From NCBI RefSeq assembly GCF_000230555.1, contig NC_016078.1, positions 2,604,001 to 2,668,000 on the forward strand: 64,000 bases of DNA, in the 5' to 3' direction. Every line of letters begins with the position of its first letter. Within the stretch, counting starts at the first letter, position 1. The notes under the pieces were generated by a model. The model saw only the letters and a list, made by a program, of their open reading frames with translations. It searched no databases and was not told the DNA's origin. The position numbers were made by a program, and so were the translations under genes. Positions 41,745-54,315 of this stretch are shown here, piece after piece. Source of the DNA: Pelagibacterium halotolerans B2. Lineage in GTDB: Bacteria; Pseudomonadota; Alphaproteobacteria; Rhizobiales; Devosiaceae.

Positions 41745-42935
41745 TCATGGCGCATTCTCCCGGTTCGTTGCCATCGTATTTGGCGGTCCGCGGGGCTGAC
41801 GCCCGCGTTCGAAGACCTCGATGACAATCATGGGGCCGCCGCAGCACGGGCATGGCGGGCGAACGTCCGACGGATCTTGTGCTGTGGCGTGATCAGGCGG
41901 CGGAACGGCGTTCAGAAGCTCGCGGGCATAGGGGATGTCGACCTTGCGTGCGCTGCCGGCGAGCAGGCCGTAGTGCCGAATGCGGTGGAACCCGCGCGGC
42001 AAAACATGCAGCAGAAAGCGTCGGATGAACTCGTTGGCGGCAATGGTCATGACCTGCTGTCGGTCGGCGCCCGAGCAGCGGTAATTCTTGTAGCGGAAAG
42101 TGACGCTGGTCTGGTCGAAGGCGATAAGACGGCTGTTCGAGATTGCCACGCGGTGAGTGTAGCGCGAGAGATAGGCGAGAACGGCTTCAGGTCCGGCGAA
42201 GGGCGCTTTGGCATAAACCACCCAACGCCTCCTTCGGATCGGCGCAAGGTGGCGCAGGAAGACACGCCGATCGCTGAGATCCGCCCGCTTGCCGAAGAAG
42301 ACGAGCTTTCCAGCTCCGTGGAGTTCGAGCAGCCGGGTCAAAAACAGGCGCCTGAACAGTACGCCGAGCACCCGCACCGGCAGCAAGAAGGCCGGCCGCG
42401 ACGATATCCATTGCCCAGCCGGTGTGAGGCCGCCACCGGGCACGATCATGTGGATGTGGGGATGGTGGGTCATGGCCGAGCCCCATGTGTGAAGCACCGC
42501 GGTGATGCCGATGCGGGCGCCAAGGTGCTTTGGGTCGCCCGCGATCGTCAACATGGTCTGCGATGCCGCTTTGAACAGCAGGTCGTAGATCAGCGCCTTG
42601 TTGTGGAAGGCAATATCGGCGATCTCGGCGGGCAACGTGAACACTACATGGAAGTGGCCGACAGGGAGAAGATTGGCCTGCTGGGCGTCGAGCCAGGCAC
42701 GCGCTGCGGCGCCCTGGCACCGGGGACAGTGCCGGTTGCGACAAGAGTTATAGGCGATCCGCTGGTGCCCGCAGTCAGAACAGGCTTCAACGTGGCCGCC
42801 GAGAGCTGCAGTGCGACAGGTCTCGATCGCCGACATGACCTTGAGCTGCTCCAGGCTCAGATGACCGGCATGGGCAGCGCGATAGGCAGGCCCGGCCGCT
42901 CGGAAGATATCGGCGACCTCAATAGTGGCGCGCAC
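41745..42935 (-). CDS. IS91-family transposase (HUH, rolling-circle)
   Basis: 396 residues. The N-terminal zinc-binding region is rich in Cys/His (CSDCGHQRIAYNSCRNRHCP then RCQG); the HUH motif is HPHIHMIVPGG; the tyrosine region reads YLSRYTHRVAISNSRL. Nicks and ligates single strands during rolling-circle transposition. Appears full length and undamaged. Confidence 0.92.
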   Translation of the reverse strand: MRATIEVADIFRAAGPAYRAAHAGHLSLEQLKVMSAIETCRTAALGGHVEACSDCGHQRIAYNSCRNRHCPRCQGAAARAWLDAQQANLLPVGHFHVVFTLPAEIADIAFHNKALIYDLLFKAASQTMLTIAGDPKHLGARIGITAVLHTWGSAMTHHPHIHMIVPGGGLTPAGQWISSRPAFLLPVRVLGVLFRRLFLTRLLELHGAGKLVFFGKRADLSDRRVFLRHLAPIRRRRWVVYAKAPFAGPEAVLAYLSRYTHRVAISNSRLIAFDQTSVTFRYKNYRCSGADRQQVMTIAANEFIRRFLLHVLPRGFHRIRHYGLLAGSARKVDIPYARELLNAVPPPDHATAQDPSDVRPPCPCCGGPMIVIEVFERGRQPRGPPNTMATNRENAP

Positions 42936-42939
42936 CGGC

Positions 42940-43780
42940 TCAGGGGTCGGGCGACTTGCCTTCCGTCAGCGCCATCAGTCTATCAAGAGGGCCAGCGACC
43001 GCGTGGATCGTTCGGGTGGACACCTTGGCGTAGAGCGCGGTCGTCTCGAGCTTGCTGTGCCCGAGCAAGACCTGGATGACGCGGATGTCGGTGCCATCTT
43101 CGAGAAGGTGGGTGTCGAAGCTGTGCCGTAATGTATGCGGACTGACACGCTTATGGATCCCGGCCACTTCGGCTGCTTCCTGCACCGCGCGATGCAGCTG
43201 TCGTGACGAGATCGGATCCGTGCGGCTACGCCATGGAAACAGCCAGCCATGAGGCAGCATCACGCCGCGCCGCTTTCCTTCGCGCCACCACAGACGCAAA
43301 AGCTCCAGCAGTTGCGGCGAGAGCATGGCATTGCGGTCCTTGCGTCCCTTCCCCTGCTCGACACGGATCAACATGCGGGTCGAGTCGATATCGTCGATCT
43401 TGAGATGCGCGACCTTGGAGAAACGCAGGCCCGCGCCATAAGCGACCCCCAGTGCGGCCTTGTACTTGATGCCTGGCGCTGCCTCGAGGAGACGTGCGGC
43501 TTCTTCCACGCTCAAAACGTCGGGCAGCTTGCGCGGATTACGGGTGTTCACCAAAGTGCGCGACAGATCCCGCCGATTCAGCGTCACCGTGAACAGAAAG
43601 CGCAGCGCGGAAACCGTGCTGTTGATCGTCGCCGGACCCACGCCCGAGGAAGGCAGCAAAGTTCCGGACGTGCCGCACATAATCCTGCTGCGTATGGGCA
43701 CCCAGACCCCGCATCACCATGTCTTGCTGCATGCGCTGGCGCAGCGGTGTGATCGGGGCATTGGTCTGAAACGTCGTCAT
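42940..43780 (-). pseudogene. Tyrosine recombinase of the IS91-type element, internal deletion and frameshift
   Basis: The N-terminus reads MTTFQTNAPITPLRQRMQQD and HTQQDYVRHVRNFAAFLGR; after about 48 residues the frame changes into GVGPATINSTVSALRFLFTV and continues intact through the catalytic domain (AYGAGLRFSKVAHLKIDDI, SPHTLRHSFDTHLLEDG, VLLGHSKLETTALYAKVS). About 20 residues of the core-binding domain have been deleted near 43650. The catalytic Arg, His-x-x-Arg and Tyr are all present in the C-terminal frame. Confidence 0.85.
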
Positions 43781-44039: not shown

Positions 44040-44051
44040 TGTGACTTTCAT
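44040..44051 (+). promoter_or_regulatory. Promoter segment shared with the second cassette (TGTGACTTTCAT)
   Basis: TGTGACTTTCAT followed by AATC (a CATAAT -10-like hexamer) lies 45 bases before the small gene at 44096. The identical 12-mer lies at a matching distance upstream of its paralogue, on the minus strand at 50212-50201. The rest of 43831-44039 shows nothing recognisable. Confidence 0.5.
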
Positions 44052-44095
44052 AATCCCGGGGCATCCTCTCCAATCGTCAACGACAGGAGACCTCG

Positions 44096-44413
44096 ATGCC
44101 CCGCACCCATGCCGAAACCATGGCCATTGCCGAACTTGCACAGGAGGTCGGCTACGAACACCCGCCCGCCAATCTGGAGCCCACGGGGCTCATGTGCGAA
44201 GACCCGACCTGGAACGACCTCGTAAACTTCTTCCGCGAGAACACCGACTCCTGGCAGGACGCCATCCGCGTCTATTGTGCGACCAGATTCGACCACAGCC
44301 TCGACCAGGTCACGATGAACGCAAATTCGTGGTTCGTCAGCGTCAGCAAGCGCCTTGAGCTCGACGACGATCCTGAAGCCATCGTGAATTTCAACGAAGG
44401 GGGCATGGATTGA
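44096..44413 (+). CDS. Small acidic protein, cassette A gene 1 (unknown function)
   Basis: 105 residues, no signal peptide or membrane segment. MPRTHAETMAIAELAQEVGY, then LEPTGLMCEDPTWNDLVNFF, DAIRVYCATRFDHSLDQVTM and ELDDDPEAIVNFN. It has a diverged paralogue at 49852-50154 with the same frame of conserved positions (MPRT.AE, LEP.G, W.DLV.F, Y...RFD..L.Q, D.F or S.F, DDP-A-V-FN). GGAGACCTCG precedes the ATG, and its stop overlaps the metallophosphoesterase start (TGATG), as a co-translated pair. I do not recognise a family. Confidence 0.75.
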   Translation: MPRTHAETMAIAELAQEVGYEHPPANLEPTGLMCEDPTWNDLVNFFRENTDSWQDAIRVYCATRFDHSLDQVTMNANSWFVSVSKRLELDDDPEAIVNFNEGGMD

Positions 44414-44907
44414 TGTCGAACACCTTCTTCACGGCCGGCACGCATTTCGGCCACCGCTCGATCCTCTCGATGTGCCGCCGCCCCTTCGAGAGCATCGAAG
44501 AGCATGATCAGGCGCTTACCGATAACTGGAATTCAGTCGTCGGACCTGACGACACGGTCTGGCACCTTGGTGATTTCGCGTACCGGTGCTCGCCGCAGCG
44601 GACCCGCGAGATCTTCGGCGAATTGAACGGCGTGAAGCATCTTGTGACCGGCAATCACGACTTTAAAAATGAGACCCGCAAGCTGCCGTGGGCATCCCCG
44701 ACAGAGCTGACCGAAGTCAACCTGGGCGGCCAAATCTACGTTTTGTGTCATTACGGACTCAGGAGCTGGCGCAACATGAGACGCGGCTCGATCCAACTTT
44801 TCGGACACTCGCACGGACGTCTCCCGGATACGTCGCAGTGCATCGATGTTGGGGTCGATAATTTCGATTACAGACCCGTGTCGCTGCCGAAATTCGTGCG
44901 CGCCTGA
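44413..44907 (+). CDS. Metallophosphoesterase, cassette A gene 2, motif I Asp replaced by Gly
   Basis: 164 residues of the calcineurin-like phosphoesterase fold. Motifs: THFGH (I), WHLGDFAYR (II), VTGNHDFKN (III), LCHYGLRSW (IV) and LFGHSHGRL (V). The paralogue at 49198-49836 has the standard SDTHFGH; here the codon is GGC, giving AGTHFGH, so the first metal-binding Asp is lost. Activity may be reduced or altered. Overlaps the preceding gene by one base and ends before a terminator. Confidence 0.85.
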   Translation: MSNTFFTAGTHFGHRSILSMCRRPFESIEEHDQALTDNWNSVVGPDDTVWHLGDFAYRCSPQRTREIFGELNGVKHLVTGNHDFKNETRKLPWASPTELTEVNLGGQIYVLCHYGLRSWRNMRRGSIQLFGHSHGRLPDTSQCIDVGVDNFDYRPVSLPKFVRA

Positions 44908-44966
44908 CCGGCTTGCCCAAGCTGCAGTTCCTCGATGACACGGATGACGAGCCGGAGAAACATTGA

Positions 44967-45000
44967 GGTTTCGTGTAACGATACGCGAAACCGCAATTTT
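44967..45000 (+). terminator. Rho-independent terminator of cassette A
   Basis: GGTTTCG and CGAAACC pair around a 12-base loop and are followed by GCAATTTTT. Confidence 0.65.
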
Positions 45001-45036
45001 TGCTGTTTGCGCATTCGATCTGGGGAGCAGTGATTA

Positions 45037-45148
45037 TTACCCACTCGAGCTGGAAAACACGCCTGAGTGGGTAAAAATGAGACATGGTGAACACCCCGTA
45101 AATGGGCGTTTAAGCGACGGAGACGTCGCTTAAGTCGTTTAAAACGAC
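45037..45148. repeat. Cluster of three perfect inverted repeats
   Basis: TTACCCACTC/GAGTGGGTAA (45037-45046 with 45065-45074), TTAAGCGACG/CGTCGCTTAA with a GAGA loop (45110-45133), and GTCGTTT/AAACGAC (45134-45148). They sit between the convergent ends of the metallophosphoesterase and the Cys-rich gene; a T run (45160-45164) follows. Could be terminators for both directions, a structured RNA or a recombination site. Confidence 0.6.
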
Positions 45149-45185
45149 ACAGACGGGCGTTTTTCGCCGTTTCGCGATTTTCAAG

Positions 45186-45518
45186 TCATCGAAACTCAAC
45201 CAGCCTTGCGCTTCTTCCCATCTCAATGATGCTCAAACCACCGAACGCCGGCGGCAGGTCCGGTGGCGGTGTCGGATCGCGTTCGATATCGGGCAAATGG
45301 ATGCCGCACGCTTTGCGATACTTCTGCGGCTTTCGGCGATCCGTCGTCCATGGACAGTCTGCTGCGAGCAGATTGAGCATTTGCTCCAGACTGGTGTCGG
45401 CGCCATATTTCGCCGCCAGGCGCGCCAACCGATATTGTCCCGATCGGCGGCACAGGTTGCACTGCACGCGGCATACGACCCACGGGTAATCGATGATGAG
45501 GACCGGTTTCGATTTCAT
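45186..45518 (-). CDS. Cys-rich small protein, cassette A gene 3 (unknown function)
   Basis: 110 residues: VLIIDYPWVVCRVQCNLCRR then SGQYRLARLAAKYGADTSLE, LLAADCPWTTDRRKPQKYRK and ACGIHLPDIERDP. The Cys pattern (C-x3-C-x2-C, then CP and CG) suggests a zinc-binding fold. The paralogue at 48827-49201 is about 80% identical over the first 90 residues. The sequence GTTCCGGTTTCGTTCTA lies just upstream of both genes, showing a duplicated promoter region. Small proteins of this type occur in rhizobial phage-like regions; the role is unknown. Confidence 0.8.
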   Translation of the reverse strand: MKSKPVLIIDYPWVVCRVQCNLCRRSGQYRLARLAAKYGADTSLEQMLNLLAADCPWTTDRRKPQKYRKACGIHLPDIERDPTPPPDLPPAFGGLSIIEMGRSARLVEFR

Positions 45519-45703
45519 GCCCTAAAAATAGAACGAAACCGGAACATGGACAAGCGTCGAGAATTGGACCGGAAATCCGTTTACTTGAGATGGATCGCGC
45601 CCTTGATTCTTGACAGGCCGTCCCAATCCCGTCCCAGCGCCGAATTTCCACTGGGACGGCCTCACGGCCATCTCAAAAACTTCAGCATTTCCTGGGGTTT
45701 TGC

Positions 45704-45757
45704 TGGTGCCGGCAGCAGGACTTGAACCAGCGACCCTCTGATTACAAATCAGATGCT
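45704..45757 (-). other. 3' half of tRNA-Thr(TGT): probable integration scar
   Basis: On the minus strand: anticodon stem-loop TCTGA-TTTGTAA-TCAGA, then a T arm with GGTTCAAGTCC and an acceptor end GCCGGCACCA. The 5' half (acceptor GCCGGC, D arm) is absent upstream, so this is not a functional tRNA gene. Integrases recreate such 3' halves at one end of an inserted element. Confidence 0.8.
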
Positions 45758-45780
45758 TGAGACAAAGAGACTTTGGAGGA

Positions 45781-45827
45781 TGATGGGTGTAACTGGGATT
45801 GAACCAGGACCCCTGCCGTGTGAACGC
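45781..45827 (-). other. 3' half of a second tRNA, probably tRNA-Val(CAC): integration scar
   Basis: On the minus strand: loop TTCACAC with 3' stem GGCAG, T arm CTGG-TTCAATC-CCAG, then TACACCCA and TCA in place of CCA. The 5' stem (ATGCG) does not pair with GGCAG, so the tRNA identity stops at the anticodon loop. Lies only 24 bases from the tRNA-Thr half and 150 from the integrase stop. Confidence 0.65.
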
Positions 45828-45975
45828 ATTGTTGGGTCGTCTGCGCGCCCCGCGAGTCTGGGCTATCCGATTGTTTCCAACACTCTTTTTGGTCTCCCTG
45901 TTCCCGCCCGCTACCGGTCGTGACCGTCTATTCGTACCGAAACCGGGGCTATTCGTAACATTCGTACCAGCCCGA

Positions 45976-47152
45976 TTACGATGCGGCAGCCCTCTTCTGA
46001 TACTCGACGTGGCAGTGGCCGTAGGTGGTCTCGACCATGGCTTCCGTCATCCCCAAGTAGTAAGCCACCTCTGCCGTTGGAACGCCAGCCAGGAGCATCA
46101 AGGTCGCCCGTGTGTGCCGCAGGATATGAGGGGTCGGCATGGTCTCGCGCATCGATCCATCGACGTCCCTGCGATCTAGGCCCGCATGGCGCGCAGCCGT
46201 CGCAAAGGATTGGTCGATCCGATCGATGCTTCTTCCGATCGGCCTGGCGCCATTCCTCAAGCATCGGGAATAGACGGTCATGGATTCGACACGCGGTCTC
46301 CCGCTTCCGCGTCTTAGGTTCGCCTGGACCGGATCGGTGGCACGTGCGGGTCGTCATGTCGAAATAGCCATGCATGTCACCTCGGCTCCAGCGTTGTCGC
46401 AGGATGCCCCCGTGACGTGAGCCCTGGAAGAAAGCGATATGGATAAACCGCGCCAGGTGCTCTTGCGGTCGCTTGTTATTCTCCCAGATCGGTTGGCGTG
46501 TGGCGACGTCCGATGCCACCCACCGGTCACCCATCGCGCACCGGGTGAGGCGCTCATACTCAATCTCGGTCAGCCAGTCGGGGGTCTTCATCCTCTTTCC
46601 GGGTCGGGTAACGACCGGAACGGCCGTGAGCATGTGCTCGCGATGCCAGACACCGATCGCAGCCGAAAGGGTATTGAGCTCGCGGGCTGCCGTCTGGTCG
46701 GACACAGGCTTCTTGATCTTCGCTCCTGGCGGCGCCCATGTCTGCGCACAACGCCATTCGACATACCCCTCACACGTCGACCGCTTGACCTGAGCGAGGA
46801 CCTTGTCGCCCCAATAGCCAAGCAGGTGCTCGATATGGATGCCGATGAATTCCCGATTGCCGGCGTCATTGCGCTTCGAATGACCGTAGAACGCCAGCAC
46901 CTGCGCGACGGAGACCAGTTTCGGATTCGAGGCTATCTCCTCGTCGAGCTGGACGAGGACGGGCGACGGCACGGACGAAGTGCGTCTGGTCGCTATGTGG
47001 ACAGCTAACGCCTTCTCAGCATCCTCGCGACAGCTTGCGCTTGCTCGAGGGAGCCTTTTGACATACCCGCCGCTGTCTCGGATCTGCCATTGCTCGCGGC
47101 TCTTGTCGTAATAGAGGTGGGCGCCACGGGCTGCCGGCATGTGTCTCTCCAT
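45976..47152 (-). pseudogene. Phage/island-type tyrosine integrase, frameshifted near 46240
   Basis: The N-terminal frame gives an arm-binding start (GAHLYYDKSREQWQIRDSGG), core-binding domain, and the catalytic Arg box HIAFFQGSRHGGILRQRW. Near LEEW (about 46240) the correct frame switches to ARPIGRSIDRIDQSFATAAR, then TPHILRHTRATLMLLAGVPT and the Tyr box VETTYGHCHVEYQ, ending at 45976. All catalytic residues exist but in two frames, so either the gene is dead or one base is wrong. Start ATG at 47152 (or 47140). It points at the two tRNA scars. Confidence 0.85.
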
Positions 47153-47415
47153 TCACGTAGTGTCCGCGGGGTTACCTTTAATAGGCGCCCGTGACGTTCT
47201 GGAGTGAGCTCGCCGCGGGAGATAGCGCCCCGCAATTCCTTGACAGTGACCCCGGACATTTCCGGCAACGTGCAGGCCTCTTCGAGACTCATGCGATGGT
47301 CTGGATGCACACCAAAAAGATCGTGATCGAGCTGGGCCTGGGCCTCGGGCGACGCGTTCAACTCTTCGATCATCCACTGGAGGGGTTCGAATCCCTCATG
47401 CACTGTCAATTTCAT
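47005..47415 (-). CDS. Excisionase-like HTH protein upstream of the integrase
   Basis: 136 residues from ATG 47415. A MerR/Xis-like segment reads GVTVKELRGAISRGELTPER then HGRLLKVTPRTLREW, the usual pattern of helix-turn-helix excisionases. Preceded by an acidic helical N-terminus. It overlaps the integrase start by about 148 bases in another frame, an unusually long overlap. A longer upstream reading frame lacks support. Likely directionality factor of the island. Confidence 0.65.
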   Translation of the reverse strand: MKLTVHEGFEPLQWMIEELNASPEAQAQLDHDLFGVHPDHRMSLEEACTLPEMSGVTVKELRGAISRGELTPERHGRLLKVTPRTLREWRDTCRQPVAPTSITTRAASNGRSETAAGMSKGSLEQAQAVARMLRRR

Positions 47416-47567
47416 GATTCGACGTTGACGCATGTTGTTGTGCACGGTCAAGCTCAGTGGCTGGCAAGATGAAGAGAAGGTTAATCGGGACGATACATCG
47501 AAATCATCATTGCCAGTTTGTGCTGCTCGCGATAAAGAAAAAAGAAGGCATGACGGAGCTACGCATC

Positions 47568-48113
47568 TCAAGGCAACAATACAAAACCTTGAGAATGGTC
47601 AGCTGCACGCTCCCTTTCGGCCGCTATTATAGCATTGATGCAATCCACAAGCGCGTTCTGCAATTCTCGCAATGGGCCCACAATCCCAAAAGTCGATCTC
47701 GGCTGGTGCCCGACCGCGTGGTCAAGATCGGTGATTAGCTGCACCGCTTTCAGCTCATCTCTGTTAACAATCGCGTCAAACACCGTTTGTCCGTAGATGC
47801 CGCTACGGTGTTGGTAGGTGTTTGACAATCGTTCGTACTGCTCACCAGCCTCGTCGACCTCGTCAAATCCTCCGGCATCGTAGATGTAATACAGCCCAAG
47901 GTCCGTAAGCTCCTGGATTTCTTCGATCAGTTCAGGATGGCTCAGAGACGACGTGTATTGCGAGAGCGCAGAAACGGCTGAAAGGCTGAAAAGCCGTGCC
48001 TCGATGCCACTATACCCCCTCGCGGCCCTCAGGTCTGCATAAATGTCGTCGATGTTCTCTGAGAGCCTGACAAATCGTTGCCATCGAACTTCTCTCATTT
48101 CGTCAGATGTCAT
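47568..48113 (-). CDS. Hypothetical soluble protein, mostly helical
   Basis: 181 residues, acidic, no signal peptide. RLSENIDDIYADLRAARGYS, then ELIEEIQELTDLGLYYIYDA and FGIVGPLRELQNALVDCINA indicate a helical bundle. No family recognised. It lies behind the nuclease gene on the same strand (18-base gap) and is followed by a 150-base gap before the excisionase. Confidence 0.6.
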   Translation of the reverse strand: MTSDEMREVRWQRFVRLSENIDDIYADLRAARGYSGIEARLFSLSAVSALSQYTSSLSHPELIEEIQELTDLGLYYIYDAGGFDEVDEAGEQYERLSNTYQHRSGIYGQTVFDAIVNRDELKAVQLITDLDHAVGHQPRSTFGIVGPLRELQNALVDCINAIIAAERERAADHSQGFVLLP

Positions 48114-48131
48114 CGGGTTAAATCTTCCTGA

Positions 48132-48590
48132 TCACACCAAAAAAAATGGCCCTTCCGGATACCAGCGCGCCAAGCCTTCATCGACGAGGATCTGGCCGAC
48201 ATCGACACCATCAATGACAAAATTGGCCAACTGGCGCTGGCTTCGAGTATTGTCGAAACCGCCGCGCTCTATCGTCCATGCATTGCCGTTTAGCAGATCC
48301 TGAAACCTTGATGTGGCTTCAGATGCGAGCTCTACTTCGAGTTCGGTCCCGCCATTAGGACATTTCGAATTTCCGCGGTTGGGCTCGGGAGTGTCGTATG
48401 ACTCAAGTCGAATATTTTCGCCGAAGAGCCAGAGCGTGTCGCCATCGACGATGCAAGTCTTATCGGGCGTGTTAGGCTGGCTGGGACCGCAGATGTCGAG
48501 CTGGGGATAATCAGCGAATGCGGCTCCGGAGATTAACGCCAGTACAACGATAAGTGCTCCCCTCATCAATAGCGAGAATGCGATAGACAT
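48132..48590 (-). CDS. Secreted thermonuclease-like (SNase) protein
   Basis: 152 residues. Signal peptide at residues 1-24 (LLMRGALIVVLALISGAAFA). CIVDGDTLWLFGENIRLESY and DTPEP are the SNase active-site strand with the Asp and Arg ligands; later QRQLANFVIDGVDVGQILVD and EGLARWY complete the OB fold. Hydrolyses DNA/RNA outside the cytoplasm in characterised members. The ATG at 48590 follows GGGGGATCC; an upstream ATG at 48638 is not needed. Confidence 0.82.
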   Translation of the reverse strand: MSIAFSLLMRGALIVVLALISGAAFADYPQLDICGPSQPNTPDKTCIVDGDTLWLFGENIRLESYDTPEPNRGNSKCPNGGTELEVELASEATSRFQDLLNGNAWTIERGGFDNTRSQRQLANFVIDGVDVGQILVDEGLARWYPEGPFFLV

Positions 48591-48647
48591 GGATCCCCCA
48601 AAGCAAAACTTGAATAGCTTTAAGATGGACCGCGCCATCGGTCAAAC

Positions 48648-48743
48648 ATGAGCTGGACCGTGAGAATCCTTATCGCGTGCGGCATTCTTAGCATCATCCT
48701 ATCCGCCATCGGCGCCTTTCAGCTCATCGCCAGCATGTTCTAA
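48648..48743 (+). CDS. 31-residue single-pass membrane peptide
   Basis: MSWTVRILIACGILSIILSA then IGAFQLIASMF and TAA. One uninterrupted hydrophobic helix with a positive N-terminus, the form of many small phage or toxin-like membrane peptides. No strong ribosome site is visible. It diverges from the nuclease gene and ends exactly where the 26-bp dyad begins. Too short to be sure. Confidence 0.35.
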   Translation: MSWTVRILIACGILSIILSAIGAFQLIASMF

Positions 48744-48769
48744 ACCAAGTGAACTCCACTTTACTTGGT
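48744..48769. repeat. 26-bp dyad, copy 1 (upstream of the Cys-rich gene)
   Basis: Arms ACCAAGTGAA and TTTACTTGGT (9 of 10 pairs) around CTCCAC. Located 58 bases before the ATG at 48827. Closely related copies occur at 49172 and 54290. A decayed half site (CAAGTAAAC on the minus strand near 45580) lies at a similar distance before the paralogue at 45518. Confidence 0.65.
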
Positions 48770-48826
48770 ATTCCTCATACTCCTCCCTGCTTGCCCGTGT
48801 TCCGGTTTCGTTCTAATTTCGAGGGC

Positions 48827-49201
48827 ATGAAGAATCGCCCCGTCCTCATAGTGGATTATCCGTGGGTCGTGTGCCGCGTGGCATGCAATCTGTGCCGGCG
48901 ATCGGGTCAATACCGGCTCGCCAGGTTAGCCGAGAAATACGGCGCCGACACATCCCTGGCGCACATGCTCAGTCTGTTGGCAGCGGATTGCCCGTGGACG
49001 GCCGACCGGTTCAAGCCGCAAAAATATCGCAAGGGCTGCGGCATCCATTTGCCAGCCATCGAGCGAGACCCGACGCCTCCTGACCTGCCGCCGGCGATGG
49101 ACGGGCTGTCCGTCAATCGAGGGTGGGAAGAAGAAGGCGGCTGGGTGAGGTCTCCGACCGATGCAAGGAATACCAAGCAAAGTCGAGTTTACTTGGTTTA
49201 G
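48827..49201 (+). CDS. Cys-rich small protein, cassette B gene 3 (unknown function)
   Basis: 124 residues. VLIVDYPWVVCRVACNLCRR, SGQYRLARLAEKYGADTSLA, LLAADCPWTADRFKPQKYRK and GCGIHLPAIERDP match the paralogue at 45186-45518 almost residue for residue; the C-terminal 30 residues differ. Its last codons (TKQSRVYLV) are encoded by dyad copy 2, so the tail may have been changed by arrival of that repeat. The stop codon overlaps the metallophosphoesterase stop on the other strand. Confidence 0.8.
   Translation: MKNRPVLIVDYPWVVCRVACNLCRRSGQYRLARLAEKYGADTSLAHMLSLLAADCPWTADRFKPQKYRKGCGIHLPAIERDPTPPDLPPAMDGLSVNRGWEEEGGWVRSPTDARNTKQSRVYLV
49172..49197. repeat. 26-bp dyad, copy 2 (within the 3' end of the Cys-rich gene)
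   Basis: Arms ACCAAGCAAA and TTTACTTGGT around a GTCGAG centre. With copy 1 it brackets the Cys-rich gene exactly. Confidence 0.65.
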
Positions 49202-49836
49202 AACTCACCCTGCTCCGGCGTCAGCTTAGCCAATTCATCCTGCTCTTCCTGCCACGACAGGCCACGGAAATCGCGGGTCTGCTGCCTTGCGAGCCACTCA
49301 CGGACGCCGTTGATATTGAGCGGTGCGAAACCCACATGATCGACCCCGACATCAAGCGCACGGGTGCTCGACGGGATGTTGCTGTGCACGTGCCCAAAGA
49401 GATGGATGCTGTCATTGTGGAAGTGGAGCCACTCGCGCAGCGGGTAGTGATCCAAAATGATTTTGGTGCCGCCGTGCTGCAAGATTTTCCGATGCTGTAC
49501 CGAAGCCCAATCCAATTCGAGCGTCGTTTCGTCATCGTGGTTGCCGATGATGAGGTGCTTGCGCCCGTGTAGCTGTTTGAAAATCTTTTCGGCGTGGTCG
49601 GCATCGCCTCGGTATGCGAAATCGCCAAGGTGCCAGACCTCGTCTCCGGGCTGGACCACGCTATTCCATTGCTCGATCATGTGCCGGTCCATCTCGGCGA
49701 CGCTCTCGAACGGGCGCGCGCACATGCGCATCATGCCAGCGTGGCCGAAGTGCGTATCGCTGATGAAGTGGTGGTGCTCGTCAATGCGGAGTGCTTTGGT
49801 CTGAAGAAGTTCAGCACGGAGCATGGTCTTTGTCAT
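49198..49836 (-). CDS. Metallophosphoesterase, cassette B gene 2
   Basis: 212 residues of the calcineurin-like fold with a complete motif set: FISDTHFGHAGMM (I), VWHLGDFAYRG (II), IIGNHDDET (III), LDHYPLREW (IV) and LFGHVHSN (V). It has a 25-residue N-terminal and a 45-residue C-terminal extension (EWLARQQTRDFRGLSWQEEQ) relative to its paralogue at 44413. GGAGG is 8 bases before ATG 49836. Twelve bases separate it from the small gene upstream, the same order as in cassette A. Confidence 0.88.
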   Translation of the reverse strand: MTKTMLRAELLQTKALRIDEHHHFISDTHFGHAGMMRMCARPFESVAEMDRHMIEQWNSVVQPGDEVWHLGDFAYRGDADHAEKIFKQLHGRKHLIIGNHDDETTLELDWASVQHRKILQHGGTKIILDHYPLREWLHFHNDSIHLFGHVHSNIPSSTRALDVGVDHVGFAPLNINGVREWLARQQTRDFRGLSWQEEQDELAKLTPEQGEF

Positions 49837-49851
49837 CAATCCATCCTCCCT

Positions 49852-50154
49852 TCAGTTGAAGCTCACAACGGCATCGGGATCTTCGAGTCGATCGAAGCGA
49901 GCGGTCATGGACTTTGCGAACGAATCTGTGTCGGCATACGCTTGCTCGAGCGTCACGTCAAAGCGATCGGAGATGTAGACGAGGAGTGCCGCGCCCCAAG
50001 ACACATCCTGGTCGTACCAAAAGTCGACGAGATCAACCCACTTCTGGTCCTGGCCAAGGGCACCTTCCGGCTCCAGTTCGGTAGGCGGGGCAATGTAGGC
50101 AATGCGCTCGGCCTCAAGCCCGGTCGCGATCTTTTCGGCGGGGGTTCTTGGCAT
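49852..50154 (-). CDS. Small acidic protein, cassette B gene 1 (unknown function)
   Basis: 100 residues: MPRTPAEKIATGLEAERIAY, ELEPEGALGQDQKWVDLVDF, LLVYISDRFDVTLEQAYADT and FDRLEDPDAVVSFN. Paralogue of the protein at 44096. GGAGAG precedes the ATG. A longer upstream frame exists, but the paralogy fixes this start. Together with the phosphoesterase it may form a two-protein unit. Confidence 0.75.
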   Translation of the reverse strand: MPRTPAEKIATGLEAERIAYIAPPTELEPEGALGQDQKWVDLVDFWYDQDVSWGAALLVYISDRFDVTLEQAYADTDSFAKSMTARFDRLEDPDAVVSFN

Positions 50155-50200
50155 CGGGTCTCTCCTATTTCGATGTCTGACGCGATGATCGGGGGTGATC

Positions 50201-50212
50201 ATGAAAGTCACA
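50201..50212 (-). promoter_or_regulatory. Promoter segment shared with the first cassette (TGTGACTTTCAT)
   Basis: Identical 12-mer to 44040-44051, followed by GATC, 47 bases before the small gene start at 50154. Confidence 0.5.
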
Positions 50213-54105: not shown

Positions 54106-54289
54106 TTCAAGTATTCCCGTTCGCGTTGGAGATACATTATTGTCGTCTGAGAGAACGGAAAAAACAAGTTAGGCCAGAGGCCTACGTGGCAGAAAGGTGA
54201 ATTGATGCCGATTTATTATGGAACTTCAAGAGGTTAGTCTCAAGAAAAATTTTCGGTATCCAGGGGTGGTAACGCTTTTCCAGAAGCAA

Positions 54290-54315
54290 AACAAGTGAAC
54301 TCGACTTCACTTGGT
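54290..54315. repeat. 26-bp dyad, copy 3
   Basis: CAAGTGAA and TTCACTTG are perfect 8-bp arms around CTCGAC; with flanking bases it matches copies 1 and 2 over 26 positions. It lies in a 334-base gene-free stretch (54106-54439), 125 bases before the gene at 54440; nothing else is recognised in that stretch. Confidence 0.65.

Follow-up and report, generated by a model that had tools for sequence, protein, structure and literature searches.

Why should Pelagibacterium halotolerans B2 carry the same three genes twice, in mirror order, on either side of an integrase gene? The question comes from a window of 64,000 nucleotides (nt), lying within a 3,944,837-base contig of a 3.95 Mb genome, in which a first-pass annotation made from the letters alone had seen two such cassettes. 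Their places and their order hold: cassette A occupies 44096-45518 and cassette B 48827-50154, with the integrase gene (45911-47152) in between. Each consists of a gene for a small acidic protein, then a gene for a phage-type metallophosphoesterase on the same strand and, converging on these two, a gene for a protein with four conserved cysteines that resembles a zinc ribbon. Judged from the sequences, A and B are two old versions of a single cargo cassette that parted long ago, a recent duplication being excluded. As to what the cassette does, the joint reading that we favor, with about as much for it as against it, is that in this mobile cargo a zinc-ribbon-like protein induced by the SOS response is coupled with a phosphoesterase of phage type.

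The evidence begins upstream of the four-cysteine genes. Conserved segments had been noted before the small genes and before the four-cysteine genes, and both are real (TGTGACTTTCA and GTTCCGGTTTCGTTC, respectively); the SOS-box nature of the second had been overlooked. By motif test, GTTCCGGTTTCGTTC lies at 45531-45545 on the minus strand before four-cysteine gene A and at 48799-48813 on the plus strand before gene B, starting 27 nt before the ATG in A and 28 nt before it in B. It follows the pattern GTTCN7GTTC, which is the Caulobacter SOS box according to Table 1 of PMC9578287 and to excerpts of PMC12700426, and a compatible SOS motif, (T/A)TGTTC-N6-TGTTC, is found in excerpts of PMC13384398. 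Across the family, the box stands within 120 nt upstream of 27 of 47 distinct four-cysteine genes, as compared with 11 of 500 other open reading frames (ORFs) and 33 of 9400 shuffles, and it is still present in 24 of 44 when the source of the idea (window A, window B and L083, the Devosia pacifica locus) is set aside. With starts placed by profile, the box is found in 25 of 47 genes at 120 nt (58 of 7401 random stretches of the same loci) and in 36 of 47 at 300 nt (135 of 7275). The loci counted are a chosen subset of those reported by the family searches, less profile hits that started beyond position 9, genes with fewer than 100 nt of upstream sequence to scan and repeated upstream sequences; moreover the genes are related, so the 47 are not independent trials. 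The boxed 27 come from Microvirga (13), Devosiaceae (7) and other groups (7) by the analyst's count. For several genes with no near box, one lies farther off, at about 240-275 nt, in some cases before a short leading ORF, which suggests two-gene units. In fact, the genome's single lexA itself has two GTTCN7GTTC boxes upstream of its start. The enrichment, taken with the box at the organism's own lexA, makes it very probable that the four-cysteine arm is under LexA/SOS control, with LexA predicted to bind the box, and suggests a role for the family in the DNA-damage response.

What kind of protein would be induced? Four-cysteine gene A (45186-45518, minus strand) was recognized by alignment and is without a Pfam family; gene B (48827-49201, plus strand) rests on the ORF list, alignments and a structure model. 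Their family counts at least 1196 matching proteins among 7994 candidates scored, mainly alphaproteobacterial, and occurs in 22 of 397 genomes sampled within the order and, at the level of the class, in 6 of 385. A Pfam model was found in none of 36 scanned members, and the two window proteins matched no NCBIfam model. Residues C20, C23, C55 and C71 are invariant in 36 sequences picked by the analyst from a database listing plus the window pair; two cysteine pairs of this kind could bind one metal, and we regard the protein as zinc-ribbon-like, with zinc the presumed ligand. The four-cysteine proteins are basic (isoelectric points 9.46 for A and 9.27 for B), the small proteins acidic (4.22 and 4.05). 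Within 1.5 kb of the four-cysteine gene there is an SRAP gene at 10 of 62 loci, a ligase-like gene at 4 and a phosphoesterase at 4, the same numbers being obtained for the 60 distinct loci left once two repeats are removed. As a rough control on other loci, mostly 3.5 kb in length, SRAP accompanies 1 of 27 phosphoesterase loci. PDB sequence searches returned only designed helical repeat proteins (E ~2e-4), judged chance matches. No relatives were confirmed in viral contigs; a Nostoc phage carries a distant family relative (28% identity, E 4e-6; L015:2974-3255), with the integrase of the phage some 2 kb away.

The opposite arm opens with the small gene and continues into the phosphoesterase. 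Phosphoesterase A (44413-44907, plus strand) is recognized by PF12850/PF00149, by alignment and by the PHROG_547 profile (E 6.3e-46), and phosphoesterase B (49198-49833, minus strand) by alignment and PHROG_547 (E 5.1e-46), its PF12850 match falling slightly below cut-off. Calcineurin-like metallophosphoesterases are marked by the metal motifs DxH, GD, GNH[DE], H and GHxH. In the alignment enzyme B has the full set. In enzyme A the first metal-motif aspartate is replaced by glycine (FTAGTHFGH, as against FTADTHFGH in a Devosia relative) and the homologous C-terminal tail runs on in another frame; A is thus a family member by descent that is probably inactive, and the earlier notion of two working copies is not supported in view of its degeneration. 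Among proteins in the PDB the phosphoesterase matches 1xm7 (E 2.5e-20) and, at E ~1e-5, 2dxl and 2zo9, all of them phosphohydrolases. A match of enzyme A to a GB-virus envelope family (E 0.014, below the Pfam cut-off) was judged chance.

Small protein A (105 amino acids; 44096-44413, plus strand; ORF list, pairwise alignment and database search) is 72% identical to the small protein of D. pacifica. Small protein B (100 amino acids; 49852-50154, minus strand; database search and structure model) is predicted to form four helices, modeled with confidence (pLDDT, the per-residue model score, 91; five models 51 to 91). Its fold had no PDB match at E 0.001, nor did a PDB sequence search give a useful one, and scans with Pfam, PHROG, PADLOC and NCBIfam profiles matched neither small protein to an antitoxin or to any family above cut-off; a DUF1281_C match of small B (E 0.097, below the Pfam cut-off) was judged chance. 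Some of the starts used for the cassette genes were picked by the analyst inside the listed ORFs. The arm has its own upstream motif: by motif scan, TGTGACTTTCA starts 56 nt before small gene A (44040-44050, plus strand) and 58 nt before small gene B (50202-50212, minus strand), and the places before these two ATGs are the only ones in the 104 kb scanned when up to one mismatch is allowed. It also occurs once, exactly, in L079, before the small gene of genome G119. In none of the modules read does an SOS box precede this arm.

That the small protein works as the partner of the phosphoesterase is a suggestion we would hold with even confidence, and that its substrate is a nucleic acid, not a signal molecule, is a possibility we rate a little below even. 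One alternative would have the enzyme destroy a cyclic or linear nucleotide defence signal, in the service of counter-defence, with the small protein as its activator and the four-cysteine protein a separate matter. The spread of the enzyme family in phages (PHROG_547; 1470 of 50,697 phage records have a homolog) speaks for such signal clearance, as does sequence kinship to the three PDB phosphohydrolases. However, small B is absent from the phage records searched, and a search of viral contigs did not find the small family. A PADLOC defence profile matched none of the six cassette proteins, although that library covers defence, not counter-defence, proteins; NCBIfam and antitoxin searches likewise gave the cassette proteins no match above cut-off. 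We consider signal clearance unlikely.

Do the three genes belong together at all? Among 136 Devosiaceae genomes, 9 have a four-cysteine match (4 strong), 33 a phosphoesterase match (one weak) and 4 a small-protein match (3 strong). The small family is rare, with 13 proteins in the 5.8 billion searched and a presence in 1 of 397 genomes sampled from the order. The phosphoesterase follows directly 3' of the small gene at all four close loci read (A, B, D. pacifica and G119), and D. pacifica has the full triad. For eight of the 13 small-protein clusters, a listed phosphoesterase cluster apparently lies on the same contig, and for five of the eight so does a listed four-cysteine cluster; sharing is read from the equal size of the longest contig and is not proven, and each of the two lists holds the best 120. 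The same layout returns in genome G051 (L090), where the small protein is distant, the phosphoesterase is a different one and a gene with the same SOS box encodes weak kin of the four-cysteine protein (tblastn E ~1e-5; NCBIfam YgiT-type finger slightly below cut-off; outside the 47). Thus the proposal of a working module on mobile islands stands as far as a recurring unit and a tight small-phosphoesterase pair are concerned, and is not supported as to a strict three-gene unit: by co-occurrence and adjacency the triad is a local association, with 5 of 43 phosphoesterase places in Devosiaceae adjoining a four-cysteine gene and 24 named four-cysteine loci outside the family having no such phosphoesterase in the stretches scanned, which reach up to 7 kb on each side. 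L105, also outside Devosiaceae, has a phosphoesterase 270 nt downstream of the four-cysteine gene on the same strand. On the G119 island (L079:8332-11896), the small-phosphoesterase pair has a C5 DNA methylase and an SRAP gene as neighbors, and an SOS-boxed unit of two genes converges on the SRAP gene.

Such numbers leave some room for the view that there is no functional unit, and that unrelated accessory genes gather at tRNA edges where each is kept by chance or for its own use. The four-cysteine and phosphoesterase genes are mostly apart in the genomes searched, the cassette A enzyme has decayed and the phosphoesterase has been swapped at least once, as would then be expected. Yet order and convergence are the same in several genomes, a phosphoesterase comes after the small gene at 4 of 4 close loci, and dN/dS (the ratio of non-synonymous to synonymous divergence) of the A-B pairs is about 0.4 for the small gene, 0.45 for the phosphoesterase and 0.12 for the four-cysteine gene, values that are rough, dS itself being rough, and that speak of purifying selection over the history of the pairs. 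We find mere accumulation improbable, to much the same degree as signal clearance.

The tail-to-tail arrangement invites a further proposal. The stops of the four-cysteine gene and the phosphoesterase overlap by 4 nt in cassette B, abut (0 nt) in L078 and lie 4 nt apart in L083; in L090 the four-cysteine-like gene overlaps the other phosphoesterase by 4 nt, and in L079 the SRAP gene overlaps a different zinc-ribbon-like gene by 4 nt. The gap to the convergent gene is 278 nt in cassette A and 105 nt (to another ORF) in L016. In 9 of 47 four-cysteine genes a convergent ORF of at least 90 amino acids ends no more than 10 nt away, a count made without a control and in which some ORFs are probably spurious. 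Stops so close suggest that transcription of the four-cysteine gene, once released by damage, would run antisense into the enzyme arm, and such a see-saw could switch off the phosphoesterase and small genes. We think this rather improbable. If it were true, it would be a damage-operated two-state toggle for a mobile element, built repeatedly with phosphoesterase, SRAP and ligase partners.

Related loci also bring to mind a toxin-antitoxin or abortive-infection system. In L078/L006 the phosphoesterase gene overlaps at its start with a gene for an AbiEii nucleotidyltransferase, and in L005/L016 it is preceded by a C-terminal piece of AbiEii; with AbiEii in this slot, the phosphoesterase might reverse the action of a nucleotidyl-transfer toxin or keep it in balance, the small protein perhaps being a replacement partner. 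However, no AbiEii is found among the window proteins scanned, and the small proteins, with their lack of antitoxin or family matches and of a fold match for small B, offer such a system no support. We consider it very unlikely.

How did the cassettes arrive? To the right of cassette A, 45704-45757 (minus strand) is the 3' part of a tRNA-Thr(TGT) gene, identified by BLASTN against the intact tRNA-Thr of L078, with its 3' end toward the four-cysteine gene, as at an old attachment-site edge; another, full-length-looking copy exists elsewhere in the genome, and no complete tRNA gene was called in the window. Next to it, at 45785-45830 (minus strand), another tRNA gene is represented by its 3' part, with an anticodon loop that the analyst reads as tRNA-Val. 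This fragment and its flank (45785-45998) resemble a copy 63 kb to the left (G000:C1:2586925-2587145; 83% alike over 222 bp), which suggests stacked integrations at one tRNA. The distance from the four-cysteine start to the tRNA 3' end is 178 nt in L083 (D. pacifica, tRNA-Thr), 185 nt in window A (the tRNA-Thr fragment), 217 nt in L016 (tRNA-Met) and 276 nt in L078 (tRNA-Thr), and these four loci place the cassette at the edge of integrating elements. The same interval holds GTCCCA/TGGGAC hexamers: two in L083, three in window A, two in L016 and five in L078.

The tyrosine integrase (45911-47152, minus strand) matches PHROG_1 (E 2.1e-16) and has no Pfam match. An ORF at 45976-46281 matches the C-terminal ends of the integrases of L080 and L079 (E 1e-14 and 7e-10), so that the catalytic C-terminal part lies in another frame and the gene looks broken; both of those loci have integrases of their own. 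Guanine-plus-cytosine content is 52-59% from cassette A to 54.95 kb, as against 62-63% left of 43.8 kb; on the right the flank is at 57%, so this side shows no contrast. Cassette B has no adjoining tRNA, a search of the flank did not locate its right edge, and no copy of the tRNA-fragment junction lies within the 38 kb scanned to the right. This picture fits two neighboring elements, one ending on the right with A and the next containing B, much as the first-pass annotation had proposed, with tRNA 3' fragments and an integrase between the cassettes. In all likelihood, the cassettes are cargo of mobile elements. Other genes of the neighborhood are an IS91-type Y2 transposase left of cassette A (41745-43780), near which a tyrosine recombinase-like gene appears by eye to be split over two frames, and a gene adjoining the integrase (48132-48638) for a staphylococcal-nuclease-like protein (PF00565) with an apparent signal peptide, also by eye.

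The two versions have been separate for a long time. All three pairs are homologous, as had been claimed: local alignment scores are 200 for the small pair (40% identity over 100 amino acids; best of 300 shuffles 46), 385 for the phosphoesterases (46%; best shuffle 52) and 442 for the four-cysteine pair (84% over 97 amino acids; best shuffle 54), the last being indeed the most alike. Divergence at synonymous sites (dS) is 1.51, 1.28 and 1.83 for the small, phosphoesterase and four-cysteine pairs, rough values near saturation, and at non-synonymous sites (dN) 0.60, 0.58 and 0.22. Thus the four-cysteine pair is most alike because the protein changes slowly, as its dN indicates, and not because of a later split. 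In a tree of 120 phosphoesterases (with database rows from the best 120 of 7994 matches, less seven that duplicated loci rows), seven of eight small-linked enzymes cluster with support of 99/89; enzyme B falls in a different clade, and at least two changes are required by the branches that have support. The small-protein tree, for which the program warned of long branches (on one other row), separates small A from small B by a 100/99 split, and the four-cysteine tree does not resolve the positions of A and B. At G119, a B-type small gene (82%) is paired with an A-type phosphoesterase (74%); therefore the enzyme was swapped during the history of the cassette. A recent inverted duplication around the integrase, in which recency would have conserved the four-cysteine pair, accounts for the mirror layout and is otherwise hardly credible, given high dS across all three pairs, phosphoesterases in different supported clades and small proteins across a supported split; gene conversion of the four-cysteine gene alone is possible in principle, yet its dS is no lower than that of the other pairs.

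Some features belong to one cassette only. Four-cysteine gene B and its box are surrounded by a 39-nt inverted repeat (92%), found by repeat search, with its left arm at 48737-48775 (plus strand) and its right arm at 49166-49204 (minus strand), the latter containing the overlapping stop codons of four-cysteine gene B and phosphoesterase B. A palindrome of 26-28 nt, ACCAAGTnAACTnnACTTTnCTTGGT, occurs with up to three mismatches at 48742-48769, 49170-49197 and 54288-54315, and genome-wide only at these three sites, all in the island. As two of the copies stand inverted within the 39-nt repeats, the segment was maybe moved as a small repeat-bounded mobile unit; alternatively, the ACCAAGTnAACTnnACTTTnCTTGGT sites may be operators. 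In cassette A, the stretch between phosphoesterase and four-cysteine genes (44985-45185, minus strand) has predicted RNA folding far above that of 200 dinucleotide shuffles (z-score -5.24), and no Rfam family match was found in it.

To explain these results, we propose that two adjacent integrating elements each brought one version of the cassette, and that each cassette has two converging arms. The first encodes the zinc-ribbon-like protein of 100-125 amino acids behind a LexA box; it would stay off as long as growth is normal and be turned on by DNA damage. The second encodes the small acidic helical protein and, directly after it, the calcineurin-like phosphoesterase of phage type; upstream it has a conserved motif of its own and no SOS box. 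When DNA is damaged or the element is induced, the pair would serve either the element or its host. We envision the zinc-ribbon protein working on DNA that is damaged or being replicated, since its kin adjoin SRAP and DNA-ligase-like genes, and the phosphoesterase with its small partner hydrolyzing a phosphoester of a nucleic acid or nucleotide.

Several observations weigh against this proposal. The SOS box is missing in 20 of 47 four-cysteine genes at 120 nt and in 11 of 47 at 300 nt, and it is not the small-phosphoesterase arm that carries it, so a damage function common to both arms is something we infer. The four-cysteine protein of the D. pacifica triad, outside the 36, has lost one of the four cysteines, and the structure model is only moderately confident (pLDDT 77; pTM, the global model score, 0.55), with no match to a solved fold at E 0.001. 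G119, one of three Devosiaceae genomes with close small genes, has no four-cysteine match; a distant small protein in L091 has no phosphoesterase within 1.5 kb; and TGTGACTTTCA is absent from the D. pacifica stretch scanned. Finally, the phosphoesterases that accompany B-type small genes belong to two clades, which makes a specific protein-protein fit doubtful.

If the two arms are coupled, DNA damage would select which of two mobile-element functions is on. Apart from that, a large unnamed family of four-cysteine proteins becomes tied to the SOS response by a motif test that can be repeated, and a phage-type phosphoesterase of unknown use gains a small partner gene and a testable context. The cassette is not described in the excerpts of PMC13384398, PMC12700426, PMC9578287, PMC3765255 and PMC10419184 or in the wider literature searched, an absence that is itself unproven.

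How does the cassette compare with known systems? With AbiE type IV toxin-antitoxin systems it shares a slot, the AbiEii gene occupying the place of the small gene in L078, and differs in having no AbiEii in the window itself. With the Caulobacter SOS regulon genes (PMC9578287, PMC12700426) it shares the GTTCN7GTTC box, found also at the genome's own lexA; unlike these genes, the four-cysteine family is without a Pfam model in all 36 members scanned. SOS neighborhoods of SRAP (DUF159) and Ku include zinc-ribbon-like proteins, with two zinc-chelating domains, in the excerpts of PMC3765255, and the four-cysteine family is similarly a small paired-cysteine protein with an SOS link, near SRAP or ligase-like genes in some loci. 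Unlike in those excerpts, the gene next to it in the window encodes a phage-type phosphoesterase and is carried by a mobile element. Lastly, the window phosphoesterases resemble PHROG_547, PF00149 and PF12850 enzymes and 1xm7 (aq_1665), in profile score (E ~1e-46 for PHROG), in 1xm7 match and, for enzyme B, in metal motifs. Enzyme A departs from these calcineurin-like enzymes in its first metal aspartate, and the window enzyme sets itself apart by being coupled to a small acidic protein and by facing an SOS-boxed gene.

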